The notes beneath the pieces were generated by a model, which worked only from the letters and a program-made list of their open reading frames with translations, did not search any database and was not told where the DNA came from. Shown one piece after another: positions 5,999 through 16,876 of a DNA stretch of 64,000 nucleotides. Both the position numbers and the translations under genes were made by a program. The stretch lies in assembly GCF_024721305.1 (NCBI RefSeq), contig NZ_JAMXOD010000001.1, positions 62,001-126,000 of the forward strand, written 5' to 3'. The stretch's first letter is position 1. The number at the start of each line of letters is the position of its first letter. The DNA is from Aequitasia blattaphilus (GTDB lineage Bacteria > Bacillota > Clostridia > Lachnospirales > Lachnospiraceae).

Positions 5999-7195
5999 CT
6001 ACAACTTCATTTCTTCTCGAACTTCTTTAAAGCACTTCACAACAAAATCAATATCCTCTTTCGTATGAGAAGCACATACTTGAGTACGAATTCTTGCTTT
6101 TCCCTTTGGAACCACAGGATAGGAGAAAGCCACAACGTAGACATTTTTCTCCATCATACGTTTTGCAAATTCAGCAGTAGTCTTTTCATCATAAAGCATT
6201 ACTGGAACACAAGGATGAGTTCCGGGGATAATATCGAAATTATTTTCCACAAGAAGCTTTCGATAATAAGCAGTGATTTCCTCTAAATGATCACGAAGAG
6301 AGGTATCCTCACTAAGCATGTCCAAAAGCTCGATGCTGGCACCTGCAATAGCAGGGGCAAGTGAGTTGGAAAATAGGTAAGGACGGCTTCTTTGACGCAA
6401 TAAATCAATAATCTCTTTTCGACCAGAGGTGTATCCACCAGAAGCACCACCTAGTGCCTTGCCAAGAGTGCCAGTAATAATGTCTACACGACCTTCAACA
6501 TTACAGTATTCAGGTGTGCCTCGGCCGTTCTTGCCGATAAAGCCAACAGCATGGCTGTCGTCAACAAGAACTAAGGCATTATACTGATCAGCTAAATCAC
6601 ATACGCCTTGCAGGTTACAAATAATACCATCCATAGAGAATACACCATCGGTAGCAATAAGTTTTATTCGTGCTCCATCAGCATCAGCAGCCTTTAGCTG
6701 CGCTTCCAAGTCTTCCATATTATTGTTTTTATAGCGATATCTTTTTGCCTTTGAAAGACGGATTCCGTCGATAATTGAGGCATGGTTTAATTCGTCGCTG
6801 ATTACCGCATCTTCTGGACCAAGGATGGTTTCAAAGAGACCACCGTTTGCATCGAAGCAGGAGGAATATAAGATAGTATCCTCTGTATGTAAGAAATCAG
6901 ACAGTTTCTTTTCGAGAGTTTTATGTATATCCTGTGTACCACAGATAAAACGTACAGAGGCTACACCGTAGCCTCGCTCATCATAAGTTGCTTTAGCAGC
7001 AGCAATGAGTCTTTTATTATTGCCAAGACCGAGATAGTTGTTAGCACACATATTTAAAACCTCTCGACCATCTGTTAAGGTGACCTTGGCATCTTGAGCA
7101 GAGGCAATGGGAACTTCGCCTTTAAAAAGGCCGGCTTCTTTTATAGCTGCTACTTCACTAGCATAAAAGTCCAGTGTATCTTTCTTTGTAAACAT
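5999..7195 (-). CDS. kbl: glycine C-acetyltransferase (2-amino-3-ketobutyrate CoA ligase)
   Basis: A 398-residue PLP enzyme of the alpha-oxoamine synthase family. With threonine dehydrogenase it completes threonine breakdown: 2-amino-3-ketobutyrate plus CoA gives glycine plus acetyl-CoA. Signatures include [12 protein letters not shown], the substrate-binding [33 protein letters not shown] and the PLP lysine in [15 protein letters not shown]. The reading frame extends to 7210, but the ATG there forms part of the Shine-Dalgarno sequence ATGGAGGATA; the true start is the ATG at 7195, eight bases after GGAGG. It lies just downstream of tdh and ends in its own terminator. Confidence 0.95.
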
Positions 7196-7215
7196 TTTTA
7201 TATCCTCCATATCTA

Positions 7216-8277
7216 TTAGTTAATATTTTCCCAGTTTAAAATTACTTTTCCAGCTTGGCCGGAAACCATAGCATCAAAGCCTTTTTGGTAGTCTTGGATA
7301 TCAAAGCGGTGGGTGATAATTGGAGAAATATCCAAGCCAGCCTGAATCATTGTCGACATCTTATACCAGGTATCCCACACCTTTCTTCCGTATATGCCAC
7401 GGAGAACTAAGCCGTTGAAGATCACAGTTTCCAAATCGATTTGCGAATCCTTTGGTTGAAGTCCCAGCAGAGAAATGTGTCCACCGTGCTTCATATGATG
7501 AATCATATCTGAAAGTCCTCCTGGATTTCCAGACATTTCTAAGCCCACATCAAAGCCTTCAGCCATTCCGATTTTTTTCATCACATCATCCAAGCGCTCT
7601 TCTTTGAGGTTTATTGTGTGTGTTGCCCCTAGTTTCTTTGCCAAATCTAAACGATATGGATTGAAATCAGTAACGACAACATGCCTTGCCCCAGCAAATT
7701 TTGCAATCGCAGCAGCCATACAACCAATAGGACCAGCACCAGTAATTAGCACATCCTCACCAATCAAATCATAATAAAGTGCGGAATGAGTAGCATTTCC
7801 AAAGGGATCAAAAATAGAATAGAGTTCCTCGGGAATATTTGGGTTACATGGCCATACATTTACATGAGGGATAACCAGATATTCAGCAAAGGCACCATTG
7901 CGATTTACACCGACACCCTTAGCATCTCTGCAGTTTTCTTTATGCCCTTCCAGACAGTTTCGGCATTTGCCACAAGTGATATGACCCTCCCCAGAGACCA
8001 AATCTCCTGGCTTATAGCCTCGAACGCCAGCACCGACTTCTACAACTTCCCCTACGTATTCATGTCCGGCAGTTAAGCCAATTGGAATAGTGTCTTGTGC
8101 CCATTGGTTCCACTCATAAATGTGGACATCTGTTCCACAAATAGCAGTTTTGTGAATTTTAATTTTCACATCATTGGGTCCGACTTCGGGAATTGGTACG
8201 CGCTTCATCCATAGACCGACCTCGGGCTTTTCTTTTACAAGAGCCCACATTTGACCATCGTCATTTTGCATATTCAT
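7216..8277 (-). CDS. tdh: L-threonine 3-dehydrogenase
   Basis: A 353-residue zinc-dependent medium-chain dehydrogenase that oxidises L-threonine to 2-amino-3-ketobutyrate with NAD+. The catalytic zinc region is [15 protein letters not shown] and [12 protein letters not shown]; the structural zinc cysteines are in [20 protein letters not shown]; the nucleotide fold carries [20 protein letters not shown]. The HIYEW motif and the downstream kbl partner separate it from other sugar or alcohol dehydrogenases of this superfamily. Start ATG 8277 is eight bases after GGAGG. Transcription comes from the promoter at 8316-8345. Confidence 0.95.
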
Positions 8278-8550: not shown

Positions 8551-10122
8551 ATGAAACAGAAACAAAAAATCAAAAAAAGCACTGCACTATTGCTGGCAGG
8601 AGTGCTGGCAATAAGTACAGCAATTGCAGCGATAGGAGCAACTTTAGCAGCAAAACCCATTAACTGGACAGCTACTGCACCAGAAGGAATGCCCACGAAT
8701 GAGAGATATCATGTAGATGCGGCAGGTATTAAGGATAACAAGAAAAAGCAATTATCCTTTGGGGCATCAAGTTCTCATACTTGGGGAAGCAGTAACATCG
8801 GAATTGCACGGGTAAAAGAAAGTACAGGGAGTAAGGCTACTTATTTGGCGGCAAAACCAGGAATTTTTATTGCCTATAGAAGCACCGAAGAAGGACAATT
8901 GGGAAGTACCACAGCCATGGTCTATGATTCCACAAAGCCTTATACCTATAGTATTTCTAAAAACCACTCGGTGATTCAGTCAGTTGGAAAAACGGATCAA
9001 ATTCCAATTACCATGAAGGATATGAATGGTGCAAAGCTTGTTGATGCTGTTACCTGGTCTTCAGATGATACGGATATAGCAACAGTGACGGAAACTACGG
9101 GAGAGATTACTGCAGTAGGTGAAGGCTTAGCAAATATTCGTGGAAGTTTTGTGGATTGCTATGGACAGAGTAGAGAAATACACTATTTAGTATCCGTGAA
9201 CAAACCAGTAGCGGATTTATTTGCAAGGAGAATTATATTAAAGCTGTCGAATGGGATGGAAATTGAAAGTGGAGATAAGGAGAATGTGGCAGCGGCTACG
9301 GATATTAACTTAGAAGATAGAAATCCGGCAAGTATGTTAGTTGAAGTAGGCAAAAGCCAGGAAGCACCGGAAGTCACAGTAATGCCAGAAAGTGCAGAGA
9401 ACAAAAAGGTAGCATGGGAGAGTTCAAAAAGTAATATTGCTGAGGTGGATTCTGCTACTGGAGAAGTGACAGGTGTAGAGAGTGGAGTAGCAGTTATTAC
9501 TGCAACAGTTGAAAATAAAGATGGAAGTAGGATAACCGCTTCTTATCCTGTATATGTTCATCGACCTGTAACGAAAATTACATTGGGGAATCCAGAAAGT
9601 TCAACGATAATTCCGGGAGGTCTCCAGAGAGGACCGACGGTAAGTATAACACCAGAAAATGCAACAAACCGTCAGATAGTATGGAGCAGTTCGGACAGTG
9701 AATCGGTAAAAGTCCTTAAAGACTGGGGAGATATAGAGGGCTGTGGAGCAGGAACTGGGTCAGCAAGGATTACCGCAACAATCACCAATCTGGATGGAAG
9801 TAAGGTGGAGGCTTCCTATGAGATGAGTTGTCCTGTATTGGCAACTGGTATGACATTAGGGGATCAAGAAAAGAAGGTATTAAGTGCAGGCGAAAAAATG
9901 AATGCACCAAGTATTAAAATTAGTCCAGAGAGTGCAGGAAATCAGCAGGTGGTCTGGAGTAGTTCAGAAAGTCGAGCTGCAATTGTAGATGAGGCTACAG
10001 GAGAAGTAACGGCATTAGAGGTAACGGATAAAAGTATAGATAGAGCAGTTAAAATTACGGCGACACTTACCAATGCAGGAGGAAGTCCGATAATAGAGTC
10101 TTACTGGATATATGTGCGTTAA
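8551..10122 (+). CDS. secreted protein with Ig-like (BIG2) repeats
   Basis: A 523-residue exported protein: a signal peptide (residues about 1-34, ending near TLAAKP), a divergent N-terminal region, then about four bacterial Ig-like domains of the BIG2 type. Recurrent signatures are VTWSSDDTDIATVTETTGEITAVGEG, KVAWESSKSNIAEVDSATGEVTGVESG, QIVWSSSDSESV and QVVWSSSESRAAIVDEATGEVTAL. There is no sortase motif, transmembrane tail or S-layer domain, so it may be released or held by another protein. Such repeats usually form rods in adhesins and cell-surface enzymes. It is the first gene of a five-gene island of exported proteins; codon use and promoter are local. Specific role unknown. Confidence 0.85.
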   Translation: MKQKQKIKKSTALLLAGVLAISTAIAAIGATLAAKPINWTATAPEGMPTNERYHVDAAGIKDNKKKQLSFGASSSHTWGSSNIGIARVKESTGSKATYLAAKPGIFIAYRSTEEGQLGSTTAMVYDSTKPYTYSISKNHSVIQSVGKTDQIPITMKDMNGAKLVDAVTWSSDDTDIATVTETTGEITAVGEGLANIRGSFVDCYGQSREIHYLVSVNKPVADLFARRIILKLSNGMEIESGDKENVAAATDINLEDRNPASMLVEVGKSQEAPEVTVMPESAENKKVAWESSKSNIAEVDSATGEVTGVESGVAVITATVENKDGSRITASYPVYVHRPVTKITLGNPESSTIIPGGLQRGPTVSITPENATNRQIVWSSSDSESVKVLKDWGDIEGCGAGTGSARITATITNLDGSKVEASYEMSCPVLATGMTLGDQEKKVLSAGEKMNAPSIKISPESAGNQQVVWSSSESRAAIVDEATGEVTALEVTDKSIDRAVKITATLTNAGGSPIIESYWIYVR

Positions 10123-10139
10123 AGTAGAGGAGTCATAGT

Positions 10140-10712
10140 ATGAAAATATCAATACAAAAAAGAGTCCTATTTTGTATAACAATGGTATGTCTTTTTATTG
10201 TATTTAGTCTAACCGTTTATGGAAAGGAAGAAGATGTAGGTACAGGAATAACGGAAATCAGCTATGAAAAGCAATATAATGACGTATACATATTGTCGGT
10301 ATCTGTTTTTGGAGAAGGTGCATTACACGATGGGAGCGGTACAATCAAGGAGCAGGTTAGTAAGTATGAGATAAGAGTGGATGAATCTAAAACGCTAAAG
10401 ATTGTGCCCTCTAAAGGGTATCAGCTTGATCAAGTCATTTTAAATGATACGAATATTACAGATAAGGTTAAGGATGAGTCAATCACAATCTATGGGGAAA
10501 CATTCAATCAAGAGCTAAAGGTGTATTTTGTTAAAGCAGCGGATAGTCCCATCATTCGCGCGTCATTAAACAGCGACAATTCAATTAAGACAGGAGATGC
10601 AGCCAGATTAGAGCTATTCGTTATTAGTTTTTTGATTTCAATCTTTACAATTTTATGTATTGTAAAAAGTGGGAAAAGCAGATGTGACGAAGAAAGGAAT
10701 CAAAATGATTAA
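10140..10712 (+). CDS. small exported protein with KTGD-type C-terminal anchor
   Basis: A 190-residue protein with a signal peptide (residues about 1-29, ending VYGKE), a central beta-rich domain with VSKYEIRVDESKTLKIVPSKGYQLDQVILND, and a C-terminus of SIKTGD, about 20 hydrophobic residues and a short basic tail (KSGKSR). That order is the layout of a sortase signal; KTGD is a common variant of the LPXTG core in Clostridia, but the leading proline is missing here. If it is not cleaved by sortase, the tail would act as a simple membrane anchor. It starts 17 bases after the Ig-like gene and overlaps the next gene by 8 bases, so it belongs to the same transcript. No specific function recognised. 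Confidence 0.75.
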   Translation: MKISIQKRVLFCITMVCLFIVFSLTVYGKEEDVGTGITEISYEKQYNDVYILSVSVFGEGALHDGSGTIKEQVSKYEIRVDESKTLKIVPSKGYQLDQVILNDTNITDKVKDESITIYGETFNQELKVYFVKAADSPIIRASLNSDNSIKTGDAARLELFVISFLISIFTILCIVKSGKSRCDEERNQND

Positions 10713-11175
10713 AAGCAATAAGATAAAACTACAATTATTGCTAGTTTTTATAGTAATTATAATGGTTTGGTTGATATCTAATCAGAATCAGAAGCCCAAT
10801 ATTGATTCATCTATTCAGGACTATGTTGCAGAGCTAAAGAGACCTGAAAACTTAGAGGAAACAAAGATACTTATACCAGCGATTACGAATATGGTTATGG
10901 ATGCGGATAGTGATGTGTTGAGTGGAACAACATTGTTTAACCCTGCTGGAAATCCATGTTATTTCCAATTTACAATTGTATTAGAGGATGGAATAACGAT
11001 TTTTGAAAGTCAATTAGTACCACCAGGCAAAGGAATAAGTGAAGCAAAGCTCAATAGAATAATAAAAGAAGGAACGTATGACGTCATAATCAGAATTACA
11101 TCATATGATTTGAATGATCACGAGAATGAATTTAATGGTGGAGAAATCAAAAGTGTACTTAGGGCATTAGGATAG
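10705..11175 (+). CDS. signal-anchored small surface protein
   Basis: A 156-residue protein with an N-terminal membrane anchor (residues about 6-26, IKLQLLLVFIVIIMVWLIS) and an outer domain containing TTLFNPAGNPCYFQFTIVLEDGITIFESQLVPPGKG and a closing EGTYDVIIRITSYDL. The pattern NP-x-x-NPCYF-x-hydrophobic strand followed by ES-x-LVPPG is one I associate with small proteins in Clostridia surface-protein clusters, but I know of no assigned function. The upstream ATG at 10669 is in frame but has no binding site; I chose 10705, five bases after AAAGGA, which gives an 8-base overlap with the previous gene. Confidence 0.75.
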   Translation: MIKSNKIKLQLLLVFIVIIMVWLISNQNQKPNIDSSIQDYVAELKRPENLEETKILIPAITNMVMDADSDVLSGTTLFNPAGNPCYFQFTIVLEDGITIFESQLVPPGKGISEAKLNRIIKEGTYDVIIRITSYDLNDHENEFNGGEIKSVLRALG

Positions 11176-11190
11176 TGAGGTGAAGCGTAA

Positions 11191-14121
11191 GTGGAGAAAA
11201 GATTAAAAATAAAAAAGAGTAATTCATGTGCCATCATTTTACTTACAATATGTCTGGCAATTCAGTCGACCATGTTTGGCATTAGTGTAAAGGCGGAAGG
11301 GGAAGAATCACCACCGATACCACCATATACTGTTGTATACAATGAGGAGTTGAACAGTGTGAGCATCAACTTTGATTTAGAAACAATAGACCAAGAGAAA
11401 TATGAGATTGCAAAACTGGTGACCGAAGGAGAGCAAAGGATATTATATGACCGAGAAGCAGATATACAAGACCTAGCCTATGAGGTAACCACGAATGGTG
11501 AGTATGAGTTTGCTCTGTACTATAAAGAAAAAGAACAACCAGTCGAGGGGGAGCAAATTATAACCGAAGAAGAGGAAACAGAAAGAGAAACAGAAGAAAA
11601 TGATACACAACAAACGCTTTTTACAATTGTAGTTGAGCAAATAAAAGATGAAGAAGGGGTAAATGTGTCAGAAGGAGGGGAGGTTCCTTTTCAGAATATT
11701 GAGCCAATACAACCCACTTTGAATGAAGAAAAACCTACCACACAAATTAATTTGACTGGTCAGTTTGATATGGCAGCTGCTGCAACAAATAAAAAGGAAT
11801 ACGCTACCATAAGTGGAAATTCTGCTAAGCTATCTGATTCGCAAATTGCATGGTCAACAGTGGAAGGTCCATTTTCACCACATCAGATATGTCAAACGAC
11901 ATCGTTTACCTCAAAATATAAGATTGATTTTAGGCGAAGTTGGAGTTTAGACGGGATGTATTTCCAGCCATTTGTGGCGGATGGTTTTGCCGTTTCATTT
12001 CATAATCAAGCAGGATATAAGTCAAAAGTTGAAAACGGAAGCGGATTCTTGGGTGCATATGGTGATATTGGGTTGAAAACAGCATTAGTTTTTGAGCTGG
12101 ATAGTTTCACATTCAGTAATCGAGGAGATGTAGGAACAGAAGGAAAAAAGGGGGCTCATATGCAGATTATGCAAGCAAATGGGACAGCTGAACCTGACAA
12201 GGTCAGTGATTTAATTCCTGTAGCAAGTGGGACATATGAAGATCCAAAATCAGCTTATTTTGGAACAGAACAACCCTTTTCCCTAAGCTATGAGGCGGCA
12301 TCGAGAACAATTATCTGGAAATATGGAGGCAGTGGCAAGGCAAGTGTAAAAACTTTGTCCTATACATTTACAAGCGAGTCTGACATTATTGCTAGATGTG
12401 GATCTTTAACGCCATACTACACGCTTTCCTGTGCCATGAACTATTCAAATATAGTTATTAACAATCATGGAAGTGCTAATTCGGGAAATTCCCAATTAAC
12501 CATGAATGAATTTAAATATATAGATATGTTACCTGCCGTTACAGAAACAAAGTATTATCGAATAGAAACAAATGGAACGGAGACAACAGAAGTACCAATA
12601 AATGGAGATGTAAATCGAGGATATTGTGCAAGAAGTGGAGATACGATTGTTATTCGTCATAAACTGAACAATACAATAAAAAGTCTTGTTGATATCAAAG
12701 ACAAGATATATGTGAATACAAAAATCAATGATACTAAATTAGAGCCCATTTCAGGAAGTGCCAAATATTATATAGATCCGAATAGTAAAATTGGATTAGA
12801 AGATGCCATATTTAATGAAGGGGGAGCAGATATTACTTACCCTAAAAACAGTGGTGCCTTTTATGTAGAATACCAGGTGAAAATACCAGATTACTTTGAC
12901 AGCGATCAGGTGAGTCAATTGGTTAGTGAGCAAAAATTAGGGACAAATGGGATGACTCAAGTTGTAAAAACGCAAAATATGCCGCTTATTTCCCGGGGAC
13001 AGCTTTTATCAAATGGAAAAAGCATCGATAATGTACAATGCTCACCTTTAAGTAATTCGTCTGTTAACTTAGGTATAACAGAAGCACAAAAATTGTTTTT
13101 TAATAATTGGAATATAAATATACAAGGAGGCGCATTAACAAGTCTAAAAACTGTGTCAGAAAAATTTGCAAACATGGTGAATAAATCCAGTTTCGTATCG
13201 GATAGCGTGGATAATAATTGGAAACTTAAGGTGTCTCACTTTTCTGGGGGAAGTGGAACAACGCAAATAGTACCTAATGTAGTCGATACCAGCAAATTAG
13301 GGATGTACTACAGCTTTGTAGAGGTTGATGAAGCGCGTTTTAAAAATCAAAATGGGATGGAGAATCCAAACGGTAAAAGGAACTCTTTGCGTCGTATATG
13401 GGTTTGTGACAATTTTGTTCAAATGAACAATCAATATGGTATAAGTAAAAACTTTACGATGGATGAGGTTAAATTATCAAAGCTGAATGATGTAACGCTG
13501 AAAGAAGAGATACTCAAACATATTCAAGTATATAGTGAAACGGCATCTATTGATGAAATATCAAAGCTCATCACAGGAAATAAAGAAGGAAAATTAGAAA
13601 GTATTACAGTAGATAACATCACGGTTCAAGGCATCACAAATTCAAGCGTAGCAGGTGCTGCGGGAAGTAAGGATTATCCTTCAACAGCAAAAATTACAAT
13701 TCATGAGAATGTATTTGATATACCCATTAAAGTGACTGTGGTTAATGCAGATGTTGCGAGCTATATTGTTATTCCAGCTGAAATTGAGCTAGAAAAAGAT
13801 GAGGGAATAAATGCATCCTGTATTGGAAGACAAGCGACGATTGAACTTATAAGTGAACAACAATCAACAGATAAGAGTTTCCGAATTCAAGCAGATACTG
13901 GATTTGAATTAGAGGATGAAAAAAAGACAAATAAATTTACTGTGGAGCTCTATGATTTATCTCGTGATAAGCTAACCACTAAAGGAAGCGTTGCAAATGT
14001 TGGAACATTAAATAAATCAACAAAGAAACTAATGGTTTGGTTAAATGCAGAAAAGATCAAGGTGAAACGTGATAGTAACTATAAGGGTACTATGAAATTT
14101 TATGTGGACCTGAAGAAATAG
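11191..14121 (+). CDS. large secreted protein with L-type-lectin-like domain
   Basis: A 976-residue exported protein, starting with GTG after GAGGTGAAG. Signal peptide residues about 1-36; a Glu-rich linker about 120-150; then residues about 210-440 resemble bacterial L-type lectins, with VADGFAVSFHN, GSGFLGAYGDIGLKTALVFELDSF, GAHMQIM and TIIWKYGG in the usual order, which suggests carbohydrate binding. A further exported region (440-860) is unassigned. The last 115 residues (from about VASYIVIPAEIELEKDEG to KGTMKFYVDLKK) form a beta domain that resembles, in its spacing of hydrophobic strands, the small secreted protein encoded next. The layout recalls WxL clusters (lectin protein, small WxL protein, anchored small protein), but no clear WxL motif pair is visible. 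Confidence 0.78.
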   Translation: MEKRLKIKKSNSCAIILLTICLAIQSTMFGISVKAEGEESPPIPPYTVVYNEELNSVSINFDLETIDQEKYEIAKLVTEGEQRILYDREADIQDLAYEVTTNGEYEFALYYKEKEQPVEGEQIITEEEETERETEENDTQQTLFTIVVEQIKDEEGVNVSEGGEVPFQNIEPIQPTLNEEKPTTQINLTGQFDMAAAATNKKEYATISGNSAKLSDSQIAWSTVEGPFSPHQICQTTSFTSKYKIDFRRSWSLDGMYFQPFVADGFAVSFHNQAGYKSKVENGSGFLGAYGDIGLKTALVFELDSFTFSNRGDVGTEGKKGAHMQIMQANGTAEPDKVSDLIPVASGTYEDPKSAYFGTEQPFSLSYEAASRTIIWKYGGSGKASVKTLSYTFTSESDIIARCGSLTPYYTLSCAMNYSNIVINNHGSANSGNSQLTMNEFKYIDMLPAVTETKYYRIETNGTETTEVPINGDVNRGYCARSGDTIVIRHKLNNTIKSLVDIKDKIYVNTKINDTKLEPISGSAKYYIDPNSKIGLEDAIFNEGGADITYPKNSGAFYVEYQVKIPDYFDSDQVSQLVSEQKLGTNGMTQVVKTQNMPLISRGQLLSNGKSIDNVQCSPLSNSSVNLGITEAQKLFFNNWNINIQGGALTSLKTVSEKFANMVNKSSFVSDSVDNNWKLKVSHFSGGSGTTQIVPNVVDTSKLGMYYSFVEVDEARFKNQNGMENPNGKRNSLRRIWVCDNFVQMNNQYGISKNFTMDEVKLSKLNDVTLKEEILKHIQVYSETASIDEISKLITGNKEGKLESITVDNITVQGITNSSVAGAAGSKDYPSTAKITIHENVFDIPIKVTVVNADVASYIVIPAEIELEKDEGINASCIGRQATIELISEQQSTDKSFRIQADTGFELEDEKKTNKFTVELYDLSRDKLTTKGSVANVGTLNKSTKKLMVWLNAEKIKVKRDSNYKGTMKFYVDLKK

Positions 14122-14168
14122 TATATACAGTATTGAACACATTCATCAAAGAAAATGGAGGAAGAGTT

Positions 14169-14723
14169 ATGAAGATCAAAAAAGTATTTTTAGCAGGAGC
14201 AGCTGTATTTGCAGCGACAACAGTACTAGGAACAACAGGAGTGTATGCAGCGGAGGATAAGACAGTAAGTGATACAACGGTAACTTATAATAATCAAAGT
14301 GTTGTGCCTGGGGATTCGGGGGTATGGGGAATCGTTATACCAACTGCCGTAAGCTTTAGTGATGGTGCCGGTGAAAAACAAAATTTCTCAGTAGAGCTTG
14401 TAGGGGTTAATGGATATGAGCTGGATGATTTGCATGCCGATTTAAGGGTACAGGTGTCTGCAACATCACAGGAGGGATATAAGCTTTCTGATGGTAAGGG
14501 AAATACTGCTGATTATGAAGTTTCTTATACAAAAACCAACAGTCAACAAGCAATCACAACTGGGACATCTACAGCAAAGAGTAAAACACAGGTGGCAGAA
14601 CTGAGTAAGACAACAGCAAAGTCTGATGCAACTGCTACATTAAAAAGAAAACCTACGGTAAAAGGTGCGTACAAAGATAAAATAAAATATTCAATTGCAC
14701 ATACTGGCAGTGAATTAAAATAA
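14169..14723 (+). CDS. small secreted beta-domain protein of the surface island
   Basis: A 184-residue protein: signal peptide of about 27 residues ending TTGVYAAED, then a domain beginning VWGIVIPTAVSFSDG and ending GAYKDKIKYSIAHTGSELK. The 'IP..I/V' opening, central VEL strand and terminal 'Y-K-(G/D)...K-(F/Y)-(Y/S)' strand mirror the C-terminal domain of the preceding lectin-like protein, suggesting a shared fold or partner surface. The frame extends to 14133 but the good binding site (GGAGGAAG) serves the ATG at 14169. It is Lys/Thr/Ser-rich and has no anchor of its own. A strong terminator follows directly, ending the island. Function unknown; a secreted subunit that assembles with its larger neighbour is a reasonable inference. 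Confidence 0.75.
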   Translation: MKIKKVFLAGAAVFAATTVLGTTGVYAAEDKTVSDTTVTYNNQSVVPGDSGVWGIVIPTAVSFSDGAGEKQNFSVELVGVNGYELDDLHADLRVQVSATSQEGYKLSDGKGNTADYEVSYTKTNSQQAITTGTSTAKSKTQVAELSKTTAKSDATATLKRKPTVKGAYKDKIKYSIAHTGSELK

Positions 14724-14731
14724 TGGCTTAG

Positions 14732-14791
14732 AAACACCCATCTTAGAATCGAGACAAGGAGTCTTATGATATCTCTAAGATGGGTGTTTTT
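14732..14791 (+). terminator. strong terminator ending the surface island
   Basis: A 16-bp perfect stem (14732-14747 with 14774-14789) and a T run to 14791. It starts 9 bases after the last island gene. Confidence 0.93.
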
Positions 14792-14816
14792 GAAATCTAG
14801 GAAAGCCTCATATCAT

Positions 14817-14916: not shown

Positions 14917-15222
14917 ATGCTAAAAGTAATGTTTGTATGTGTGGCCGGCATGTCTACCAGCCTGCTTGTTGAGAAGGTAAATGAGGTTGCAAAAGGAAAA
15001 GGAATGGAAATAGATGTATTTTCAAGGGCTGAGACGGAAGCGAGAAGCGATTTGAATCAGGCAGATGTAATACTTCTTGGTCCCCAGGTGCGTTATTTAG
15101 AGAGCAGCTTCCGTGAGGGGATTTCAGGCATGGACATTAAGCTGGGAGTAGTAGATATGGTTTCTTACGGAAGGATGGATGGCGCAGCAGTTTTAAAACA
15201 GATAGAAGAACTGATAAAATAA
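14917..15222 (+). CDS. PTS system, lactose/cellobiose-family EIIB subunit
   Basis: A 101-residue cytoplasmic phosphocarrier of the cellobiose/chitobiose/lichenan PTS family. The phospho-accepting cysteine is C8 in FVCVAGMSTS, and the family's LGPQVRY motif follows at about residue 55-60. It takes phosphate from EIIA and passes it to a sugar entering through EIIC. Length is normal. It is the first gene of a B-C-A operon. The sugar cannot be named from sequence; this family imports beta-glucosides, chitobiose or lactose. Unlike most such operons, no phospho-beta-glycosidase or BglG/LevR regulator lies alongside. Confidence 0.93.
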   Translation: MLKVMFVCVAGMSTSLLVEKVNEVAKGKGMEIDVFSRAETEARSDLNQADVILLGPQVRYLESSFREGISGMDIKLGVVDMVSYGRMDGAAVLKQIEELIK

Positions 15223-15240
15223 AAATATGAGGTGTTGTAT

Positions 15241-16566
15241 ATGAGGGGAATGGACAATTCTGTTGTAAATAAATTGGTAACAGTTGCTTCAAAAATAGGC
15301 AGACAAAGACATTTGAGTGCGATTAGAGATGGGTTTATTTCGTTGATTCCTTTGATGATAGTAGGGTCGATTGGGACATTGATTAATAACTTCCCCACAG
15401 GCCAAACCAGCACTTTACGTATGTTTCTGTCTGAAAACGAGTTCTTATCTTGGATTGTAACCTTAAATGGAAATATATGGTGGGGGAGTATGGGAGTAAT
15501 GTCCATATTCACAGTGGTAACAATTTCCTATTATCTGGCAAAATCCTATGAAGGGGATGCGTTAATGGCTGGACTGGTTTCGCTATCAAGCTTCCTGGCA
15601 AGCACACCTCAGAATGCGGTGCTTATGGCAGGAGACGAAGAGATAAGCGGATGGGGATTTATCAGTACAAGGCATATCAATGCCCAGGGACTTTTTGTGG
15701 CAATTCTTATTGCGTTAGTGGCAACAGAGCTTTTCGTAAGGTTTTCCAAAAGTGAAAAATTAACAATTAAGATGCCAGCAGGCGTTCCGCCAGCAGTATC
15801 GAAATCTTTTGGTGCATTAATACCTGGAGCACTGACGGTTATAGCCGTAAATTTCGTGACGGTTATGTTGGAGAAAATATTGCACAATAACGTGTTTGAT
15901 GCAATTTATGAAAGCATAGCAAAGCCTCTTTCCAACACCTCAGGTTCTTTAGGATTTGGATTGGTTATTGTTTTTTTGACACATTTTCTCTGGATTTTCG
16001 GAATTCATGGACCGAATATGTTCGAGGGGATTTTACAAACCCTTAATGCAATGGCAATTGAAAACAATCAGAACCTCATGAATATGGGGGCATCGGAAGG
16101 GTTTACAATTTTTAATAAATCCTTTGTTGATACATTTGTCTATATGGGTGGGGCAGGAGTCGGGCTTGGACTTATTATTGCAATTTTAATGCTGTCAAAA
16201 CATGAACAGATACGAAGAGTCGGGCAGATTGGAGTGGCTCCAGGAGTATTTAACATAAATGAGCCTATTTTATTTGGACTGCCCATTGTTTTAAATCCTG
16301 TTTTTGCAATTCCTTTTATTTTAGCGCCAATGATATCTCTTGTGGTTGCATATACTGCTACGACCCTTGGGCTTTTACCACCAGTTGGAGTAATCATTCC
16401 ATGGACTACACCACCTATTTTATCAGGGCTGTTTGCATCCAATTTTAGTATATGGGGACCGATTGTTCAGATTATTAATTTAGGACTCTCAATCGTGATA
16501 TATATCCCGTTTGTAAAAATAGCTGACCGGGTAGAAGCAAAGAAGGAGAAGATGCAGAATGAATAA
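15241..16566 (+). CDS. PTS system, lactose/cellobiose-family EIIC permease
   Basis: A membrane permease of about 441 residues with eight to ten hydrophobic segments, carrying the sugar across the membrane while EIIB phosphorylates it. Family signatures are the N-terminal ISLIPLMIVGSIGTLINNFP, the FLTHFLWIFGIHGPNMFEGI segment and the conserved NINEPILFGLPIVLNP loop. The frame opens at a GTG (15232), but GAGGTG lies six bases before the ATG at 15241, which I take as the start. It follows EIIB after 18 bases and overlaps EIIA by 8 bases. Substrate not assignable. Confidence 0.93.
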   Translation: MRGMDNSVVNKLVTVASKIGRQRHLSAIRDGFISLIPLMIVGSIGTLINNFPTGQTSTLRMFLSENEFLSWIVTLNGNIWWGSMGVMSIFTVVTISYYLAKSYEGDALMAGLVSLSSFLASTPQNAVLMAGDEEISGWGFISTRHINAQGLFVAILIALVATELFVRFSKSEKLTIKMPAGVPPAVSKSFGALIPGALTVIAVNFVTVMLEKILHNNVFDAIYESIAKPLSNTSGSLGFGLVIVFLTHFLWIFGIHGPNMFEGILQTLNAMAIENNQNLMNMGASEGFTIFNKSFVDTFVYMGGAGVGLGLIIAILMLSKHEQIRRVGQIGVAPGVFNINEPILFGLPIVLNPVFAIPFILAPMISLVVAYTATTLGLLPPVGVIIPWTTPPILSGLFASNFSIWGPIVQIINLGLSIVIYIPFVKIADRVEAKKEKMQNE

Positions 16567-16876
16567 GGAAAATGTAAGAATGGTGATGAATCTTATCGCA
16601 GATGCGGGAAGTTCCAAAAGCTACTCAATGCAAGCGATTGCATATGCCAGAGAAGGAAAGTTTGAGGCTGCAAAAATAGCAATGAATCAATCGGAAGAGG
16701 AGATTACGAAGGCACATGCATTGCAAACGGATTTGATACAAAATGAAGCAAAAGGAGATAAGACCGAAATGGATCTTTACATGGTTCATGCACAAGATCA
16801 TGTAATGACGGCTATTCTGGCAAAAGAAATGGCAGTAGAGATAGTAGAATTGTATCAACGCCTTGAGAAACAATAG
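16559..16876 (+). CDS. PTS system, lactose/cellobiose-family EIIA subunit
   Basis: A 105-residue all-helical cytoplasmic phosphocarrier of the EIIA-Lac/Cel family. The phospho-histidine is H77 in MVHAQDHVMTAILAKEM, with the conserved Asp three residues on that binds the trimer's metal ion. Another family block is GSSKSYSMQAIAYAREGKFEAAKIAM. It receives phosphate from HPr and gives it to the EIIB encoded two genes upstream. The start overlaps the EIIC stop by 8 bases, so translation is probably coupled. A bidirectional terminator closes the operon. Confidence 0.95.
   Translation: MNKENVRMVMNLIADAGSSKSYSMQAIAYAREGKFEAAKIAMNQSEEEITKAHALQTDLIQNEAKGDKTEMDLYMVHAQDHVMTAILAKEMAVEIVELYQRLEKQ

Follow-up and report, generated by a model that had tools for sequence, protein, structure and literature searches.

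We studied a stretch of 64,000 nucleotides of Aequitasia blattaphilus (contig NZ_JAMXOD010000001.1, positions 62,001 to 126,000; called the window in what follows), in which five genes of the + strand, P1 to P5, form an operon (Table 1). Judging from the relatives of these genes, the conserved core of the operon is P2-P3-P4-P5: the small protein P5 and the C-terminus of the large protein P4 share one kind of domain, and genes coding for this domain are found almost only near relatives of P3. On balance, we lean towards the view that the four proteins make up a surface lectin display module which works like a WxL cluster, with different protein families and by strand complementation. A sequence-only reading of the same DNA had proposed that the five genes are a Clostridia counterpart of the WxL clusters. 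This proposal is partly supported by our analysis, and it can be sharpened because P5 and the C-terminus of P4 share one domain, found almost only near P3. Three corrections have to be made: the unit has four genes, it is found beyond Clostridia, and the predicted folds point to a pair of pilin and chaperone.

Table 1. Features of the operon (positions in the window)
Feature	Position	Strand	Description
P1	8551..10122	+	secreted protein of 523 aa with bacterial immunoglobulin(Ig)-like (Big_2) domains; open reading frame; in the operon by position, outside the conserved core
P2	10140..10712	+	small surface protein of 190 aa: signal-like N-terminus, domain of ~110 aa, sortase-type tail with TGD
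P3	10705..11175	+	156 aa: one N-terminal membrane segment and one Ig-like domain of ~100 aa (undescribed family), predicted to resemble the PapD N-domain
P4	11191..14121	+	secreted, two-ended protein of 976 aa: the N-terminal half with a putative L-type lectin domain, the C-terminus with a P5-type domain
Putative L-type lectin domain of P4	11785..12369	+	residues about 199-393; PF18483 profile, below cut-off
C-terminal P5-type (predicted pilin-fold) domain of P4	13726..14112	+	residues about 846-974; profile-profile comparison
P5	14169..14723	+	small secreted protein of 184 aa, one predicted pilin-fold domain; signal-like start; open reading frame
Intrinsic terminator of the operon	14728-14793	+	-33.8 kcal/mol, z -7.3

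Iterated searches within the loci which we fetched showed the P5 domain either as a complete small protein or as the end of a large one, the latter in many cases; of the matched proteins, 141 have at most 300 residues and 70 are larger. Its distance to the C-terminus has a median of 2 residues in the small proteins and of 3 in the large ones, with upper quartiles of 6 and about 150 residues, respectively. The corresponding part of P4 is matched at 6e-10 by a P5 profile that includes the signal peptides and at 5e-4 by a profile of the mature proteins only; for the large protein of a related locus of Granulicatella balaenopterae (L119, see below), the first profile gives 5e-9 and the second gives no match. 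In a stricter comparison between profiles, where the C-termini of these two large proteins formed one side and a P5 profile deprived of the rows from the window and from L119 the other, we obtained p 1.1e-6, and 7.8e-5 for P4 alone, the best of 40 column shuffles giving 0.079 and other segments of P4 giving 0.12 or more. We concluded from these comparisons that P5 and the C-terminal part of P4 belong to one domain type. Its last strand, which follows a conserved A-G-x-Y, is hydrophobic at positions 145, 147 and 149 in 100, 100 and 96% of 70 rows (alignment A4 holds 70 of 77 rows). Directly before the domain, the small proteins have an N-terminal stretch where hydrophobic fractions of 0.80, 0.53 and 0.53 alternate with 0.19, 0.12 and 0.05 at the positions between (n=106); the alternation is weaker in the large proteins (n=65). 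The P5-domain proteins were also scanned for known families (95 of 153, plus the large protein of L119; best 25 of 113 and of 64 families). Among the NCBIfam matches listed, ExtJ occurs for 14 of 96 proteins (best 7.6e-4) and BLB8/JUQZ-1 for 8 of 96 (best 2e-6), with either the domain or the signal peptide as the source of the match.

The pairing of this domain with P3 was measured in 299 genomes of the window organism's own family, with at most 13 candidates scored per genome, so that copy numbers are lower bounds. The P5 profile, which was built from neighbours of P3 (a caveat for the pairing counts), matches 24 of these genomes, of which 21 also have a P3 match (Fisher p 6e-17). For 30 of the 34 P5 matches, one of which is a fragment of 25 profile positions in G191, a P3 match is present on the same contig at a distance of at most 10 kb; the four others are in G017, where a looser single-sequence search does find a P3 nearby, and in G051, G140 and G298. 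The same association is seen locus by locus. Our set of 74 loci consists of the window and of 73 of the 80 named loci, the seven others (L081, L090, L109, L132, L134, L145 and L152) being without a P3 gene in our gene calls. A P5-domain gene is present within 6 kb and on the strand of P3 in 61 of the 74 loci, a small one in 57 and a large one in 38; a sortase-type tail is found in 30, and small gene, large gene and tail are all present in 16. As many as 170 of 171 P5-domain genes are on the strand of P3, and many loci have several small genes plus large ones (at most 5 and 2, respectively). After removal of near-duplicates, a P5-domain gene remains in 51 of 62 loci, the window being excluded, and the domain is carried by 90 of 242 same-strand genes at distances of up to 3 kb versus 7 of 217 beyond 6 kb. 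Seen from the side of P5, the pairing therefore appears nearly obligate. It is looser from the side of P3, since the P5 profile matches nothing in 24 of the 45 genomes which have P3.

The order of the genes is conserved as well. In G. balaenopterae, locus L119 codes successively for a protein of 169 aa with a sortase tail (FPQTGD), a P3 of 249 aa, a large secreted protein of 1016 aa and a small secreted protein of 187 aa, separated by 14, 23 and 75 bases, which is the order P2-P3-P4-P5. All four are homologs of the window proteins, with E-values of 3e-15 for P2, 1e-20 for P4 and 2e-21 for P5 among the fetched proteins, and of 8e-31 for P3 in a scan of genome contigs; P4 and its relative align over their full length with 27% identity. 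The P2 relative reaches 15.9 bits with LPXTG_anchor, exactly at the cut-off of 15.9, and 29.4 bits (9e-7) with the EF2685/EF0750 sortase-protein family, below the cut-off of 47; we take this family to be part of WxL-type clusters. The conserved order which the sequence-only reading had proposed to look for was thus found for P2-P3-P4-P5 and not for P1. Because nothing in the operon of L119 corresponds to P1, we placed this gene outside the core and concluded that the unit conserved in these sequences has four genes, not five; the best match of P1 among the fetched proteins, a protein of 1295 aa in L137, concerns the Big_2 part only. Relatives of P2, P5 and P3 also occur together in Faecalicatena (L033 and L073), the P2 relative with E 2e-12. 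There is no P4 relative at these two loci; another large P5-domain open reading frame lies ~1.4 kb from P3 on a Faecalicatena contig (G148:C52). Further relatives of P4 were not found: a scan of genome contigs with its single sequence gave 44 pattern matches, of which none was confirmed, with no plasmid match, and at class level the own genome is the only one matched among 391.

P3 is more widespread. Within the own family, its single sequence matches 37 of the 299 genomes (E<=0.01) and a profile of 56 rows (56 of 60 in alignment A5) matches 45 (E<=0.001). A scan of genome contigs with six close P3 rows confirmed 107 relatives; the best 80 of these include Lachnospiraceae, Ruminococcus, Oscillospiraceae, Christensenella, Eubacterium callanderi, a metagenome-assembled genome of Desulfoscipio and G. 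balaenopterae. Relatives are also present in Amedibacillus dolichus and Clostridium spiroforme, which belong to the Erysipelotrichia (where the names of higher groups go beyond the record titles, they are those to which we take the organisms to belong). Hence the sequences place the system beyond Clostridia: Granulicatella, one of the Lactobacillales, has the full set, and P3 also occurs in Erysipelotrichia. What stands of the proposed Clostridia counterpart is the likeness to WxL clusters, not the confinement to one class.

Some P3 genes are found in other surroundings. In one genome, G149, the P3 family is matched at least 13 times (of 115 candidates, 13 were scored) and the P5 domain not at all, and therefore P3 must have other partner families. 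At L052, L057, L060 and L063, P3-like genes are clustered with genes for secreted proteins of ~250-360 aa, one of which at each locus has VGTIVWT near its C-terminus; these are possibly another such family. At L055, L056, L062, L067, L070 and L072 the P3-like gene is followed by one for a secreted protein of ~335-375 aa, in some cases with extra genes which look like glycosyltransferase genes by eye. Tandem copies of P3, of ~250 aa and with an extra part N-terminal to the membrane segment, occur at L113, L080, L035 and also L118; the single copy of L119 has such an extra part as well.

The individual proteins are largely as the sequence-only reading had described them. For signal peptides, sortase tails and membrane segments we relied on a hydropathy script and on inspection by eye. 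The Ig-like nature of P1 was confirmed by a Pfam scan, in which Big_2 matches four stretches (E 1.3e-30). P3, which had been called signal-anchored, has a single hydrophobic segment, at its N-terminus, and P5 is indeed a small protein with a signal-like start. The sortase-like tail of P2 has TGD, hydrophobic and basic parts; its score with TIGR03063 (srtB_target) in the NCBIfam scan, 16.8 bits, is below the cut-off of 18.15. The own genome has 7 sortase matches. As full-length queries, P2 to P5 give no Pfam match with an E-value under 0.01, and none of them exceeds the cut-off of an NCBIfam model, the NCBIfam scan of the P3 family covering two members, those of the window and of L119; neither P3 nor P5 has any Pfam family at E<=1. 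The L-type-lectin-like domain attributed to the 976 residues of P4 is absent from full-length scans of P4 and of its L119 relative and becomes visible only when the segment is taken alone. PF18483 (Lectin_L-type_dom), a profile of the legume-type lectin barrel, then matches the segment of P4 with E 1e-8 and 35.8 bits, over profile positions 4-188 of 215, and that of the relative with E 6e-11 and 43.1 bits, both below the curated cut-off of 78.3. From this profile match we infer that P4 may bind glycans. Searches of PDB sequences gave only weak matches of P4 to one fluorescent protein (0.029), no match for the single sequence of P5 or for the alignment of the two lectin segments (A6), and nothing below 0.5 for the P3 profile. 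The P3 and P5 profiles show no relation to each other (p 0.11).

The operon itself is real: its five genes follow one another with gaps of 17, -8, 15 and 47 bases, in the tight order that had been described, and a strong terminator closes it. These gaps are counted from the best starts of P3, the ATG at 10705, which gives an overlap of 8 bases with P2, and of P5, the ATG at 14169, which is preceded by a ribosome site of GGAGG type and is preferred to the TTG at 14133 given by the program for open reading frames. None of 200 shuffles equals the terminator hairpin in folding energy. The promoter which had been placed at the other end of the operon is unproven, as the promoter-like sites in the region are not above chance (33 seen versus 29.2 +/- 5.3 expected). 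On the same strand, ~120 bases 3' of the terminator, a phosphotransferase system of the lactose/cellobiose type occupies positions 14917-16876 (IIB of 101 aa, IIC of 441 aa and IIA of 105 aa); this is compatible with a carbohydrate niche and proves nothing. The upstream neighbours are divergent genes of the minus strand for glycine C-acetyltransferase and L-threonine 3-dehydrogenase (5999-8277).

Profile-profile searches and structure prediction had been suggested for all five proteins; P3 and P5 were folded, and the folds point beyond WxL proteins to a pair of pilin and chaperone as in chaperone-usher systems. The AlphaFold2 model of P5 (predicted local distance difference test, pLDDT, 88; predicted template-modelling score, pTM, 0.79) matches chaperone-usher pilins in 46 of 50 rows, and the P5 profile also matches pilins among PDB sequences. 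Residue 152 of the model aligns to the last residues of FimG and FimA, and its last strand lies on the last strand of the pilins. Pilins of this kind lack a strand to close their own sandwich. Because of this lack and of the alignment of the last strands, we infer a donor strand: the P5 domain, predicted to have a chaperone-usher pilin fold, may itself be without a closing strand. For P3 (pLDDT 93, pTM 0.86), the matches are Ig domains, including pilus-chaperone N-domains in 19 of 50 rows, and the top rows also contain carbohydrate-binding or enzyme-accessory Ig domains (GbpA, a carbohydrate-binding module). P3 is hence predicted to be a membrane-tethered Ig domain, similar to pilus-chaperone N-domains and to Ig domains of other kinds as well. 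WxL and known fibre families which are outside the VIA lists were not excluded on that ground.

The WxL clusters, or csc clusters, contain a small WxL protein (CscB), a large one (CscC) whose WxL domain is C-terminal and which can also have a ConA-like lectin domain, and a WxLIP (CscA, DUF916 and DUF3324, PF11797) that has two Ig-like domains and, at its C-terminus, a membrane helix; a short LPxTG protein (CscD) is often present too (PMC1534035, PMC9772566, PMC10599100). The plan of our operon is the same, with a small protein which is the domain only, a large protein with the same domain at the C-terminus and a putative lectin at the N-terminal side, a membrane-tethered Ig-like partner and a small candidate for sortase anchoring (the tail of P2 being below cut-off). 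Within WxL clusters, the domains of the small and of the large protein have different predicted topologies (PMC9772566). The domain families of our operon differ from those of WxL clusters. No WxL or DUF916/DUF3324 domain is present in the operon; P3 has one Ig domain and an N-terminal anchor where WxLIP has two and a C-terminal anchor, and the shared domain is predicted to have the chaperone-usher pilin fold. The absence of WxL and DUF916, which had already been remarked, was confirmed: PF13731 (WxL) matches neither P4 nor P5 at E<=1 nor anything in the own genome, a Lactococcus lactis control being positive, and PF06030 (DUF916) is found in none of the five proteins nor in the own genome. 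WxL is also absent from the eight P3-bearing genomes searched, including Granulicatella. Among 40 genomes of the family to which Granulicatella belongs, one does have a canonical WxL cluster (L155, in G342), and we used it for comparison. It codes for a WxLIP (336 aa), two WxL proteins (235 and 419 aa) and a further protein (804 aa). Against these, the P5 profile gives p 0.02 (probability 2.4%) and the P3 profile p 0.07 with the single WxLIP sequence, neither being significant. The negative WxL comparison is weak because it relies on three WxL-side sequences, of which that of 804 aa has no PF13731 match. Since WxL and DUF916 are absent, none of eight P3 genomes has WxL and the profile comparison is not significant, we concluded from the sequences that the operon is not a member of the WxL clusters. 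A like plan without a match of domains means that working alike has to be kept apart from kinship.

According to a rival reading, the operon would be a true, very diverged WxL cluster, with P5 as a WxL domain without its motif and P3 as a reduced WxLIP. The common architecture (PMC1534035, PMC9772566, PMC10599100) speaks for it, and so does an AlphaFold2 model where a strand of WxLIP fills a gap in WxL and completes its sandwich (PMC10599100). The missing profile matches and the eight genomes without WxL argue against it, as does the fact that three proteins of the real WxL cluster of G342 have no pilin-family match at E<=10, and we hold it to be decidedly improbable. We give as little credence to the idea that P2-P5 are independent surface proteins, P3 being a generic tethered binding or enzyme-accessory domain and P4 and P5 simple adhesins in an island of surface proteins. 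It would account for the enzyme-accessory Ig domains among the top rows of P3, and the interaction of P3 with P5 is only inferred; however, it does not explain a pairing which is conserved across 299 genomes, the single strand shared by 170 of 171 P5-domain genes with P3, or a four-gene order conserved in another order of bacteria.

The predicted folds lead to a further comparison, with the chaperone-usher pili (type 1, CFA/I, archaic Csu/SCPU). These also have a small subunit of the fold predicted for P5, an adhesin made of a lectin and a pilin domain, and a partner to which P3, among other Ig domains, is predicted to be alike. FimH has precisely such a plan, with an N-terminal lectin and a C-terminal pilin domain. 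Unlike the chaperones of these pili, P3 is membrane-tethered and has one domain, and a sortase-type protein is added. No outer membrane usher is expected, because we take the host to be monoderm. One may therefore imagine a monoderm pilus without usher, where P3, as a membrane-bound chaperone, would keep hold of P5 subunits before polymerisation and hand them over, the subunits polymerising outside the membrane by donor-strand exchange of their N-terminal strands, with P4 as a FimH-like tip adhesin and P2 as a base anchored to the wall by sortase. The fold of P5, which ends where pilins end, the alternating N-terminal stretch of the small proteins, the many loci with several small genes plus large ones and the chaperone-like rows of P3 all favour it. 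However, the alternating strand would equally fit an ordinary or a self-complementing strand and exists in a weaker version in large proteins, the window has a single P5 gene, P3 lacks a second chaperone domain, and an assembly factor and a polymer would have to be assumed; we therefore regard such a pilus as rather unlikely. Other fibres of Firmicutes, TasA and the endospore appendages S-, L- and F-ENA, likewise consist of beta-sheet proteins which Gram-positive bacteria secrete and which strands or hooks join together, and a TasA fibre (8aur, 1.5e-2) is in the Foldseek list of P5. TasA subunits are linked by donor strands. F-ENA uses N-terminal hooks and, as far as the consulted part of the source goes, these fibres have neither a lectin-tipped protein nor a PapD-like partner (PMC11952670). 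Spore appendages were set aside because F-ENA is of the DUF4183 family (PMC11952670), which mature P5 does not match at E<=10.

Returning to the display module which we favour, P3 would catch the P5-type domains when these emerge from the Sec channel. A beta strand of P3 would complete or cap them, and P5 and P4 would in this way stay at the envelope. P2 would be fixed to the peptidoglycan by one of the sortases of the cell, as the partner on the side of the wall, and the lectin end of P4 would face outward and bind a glycan of mucin, plant or microbial origin. Gene order, homology, shared domain, genomic pairing and lectin profile match are what the sequences establish at their own level, and the conserved surface module is real. 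We met no description of a P2-P5 system in the open-access literature, searched by title and opening of the abstract, subscription journals being mostly outside this scope.

The novelty would thus lie in the families of P3 and P5 and in their predicted chaperone- and pilin-like folds. These families, whose members in the window have no curated Pfam or NCBIfam match, apparently serve surface display in gut Clostridia and Lactobacillales, P3 being present in Erysipelotrichia too. Should the pilus without usher prove right, the chaperone-pilin principle would have another branch in the WxL clusters. Should P3 and P5 interact by strand complementation, as we propose, this principle would extend from bacteria with an outer membrane to cells with a single membrane, the way in which WxL clusters retain their proteins would have a testable model, and a glycan-binding surface structure could be sought in abundant gut bacteria.

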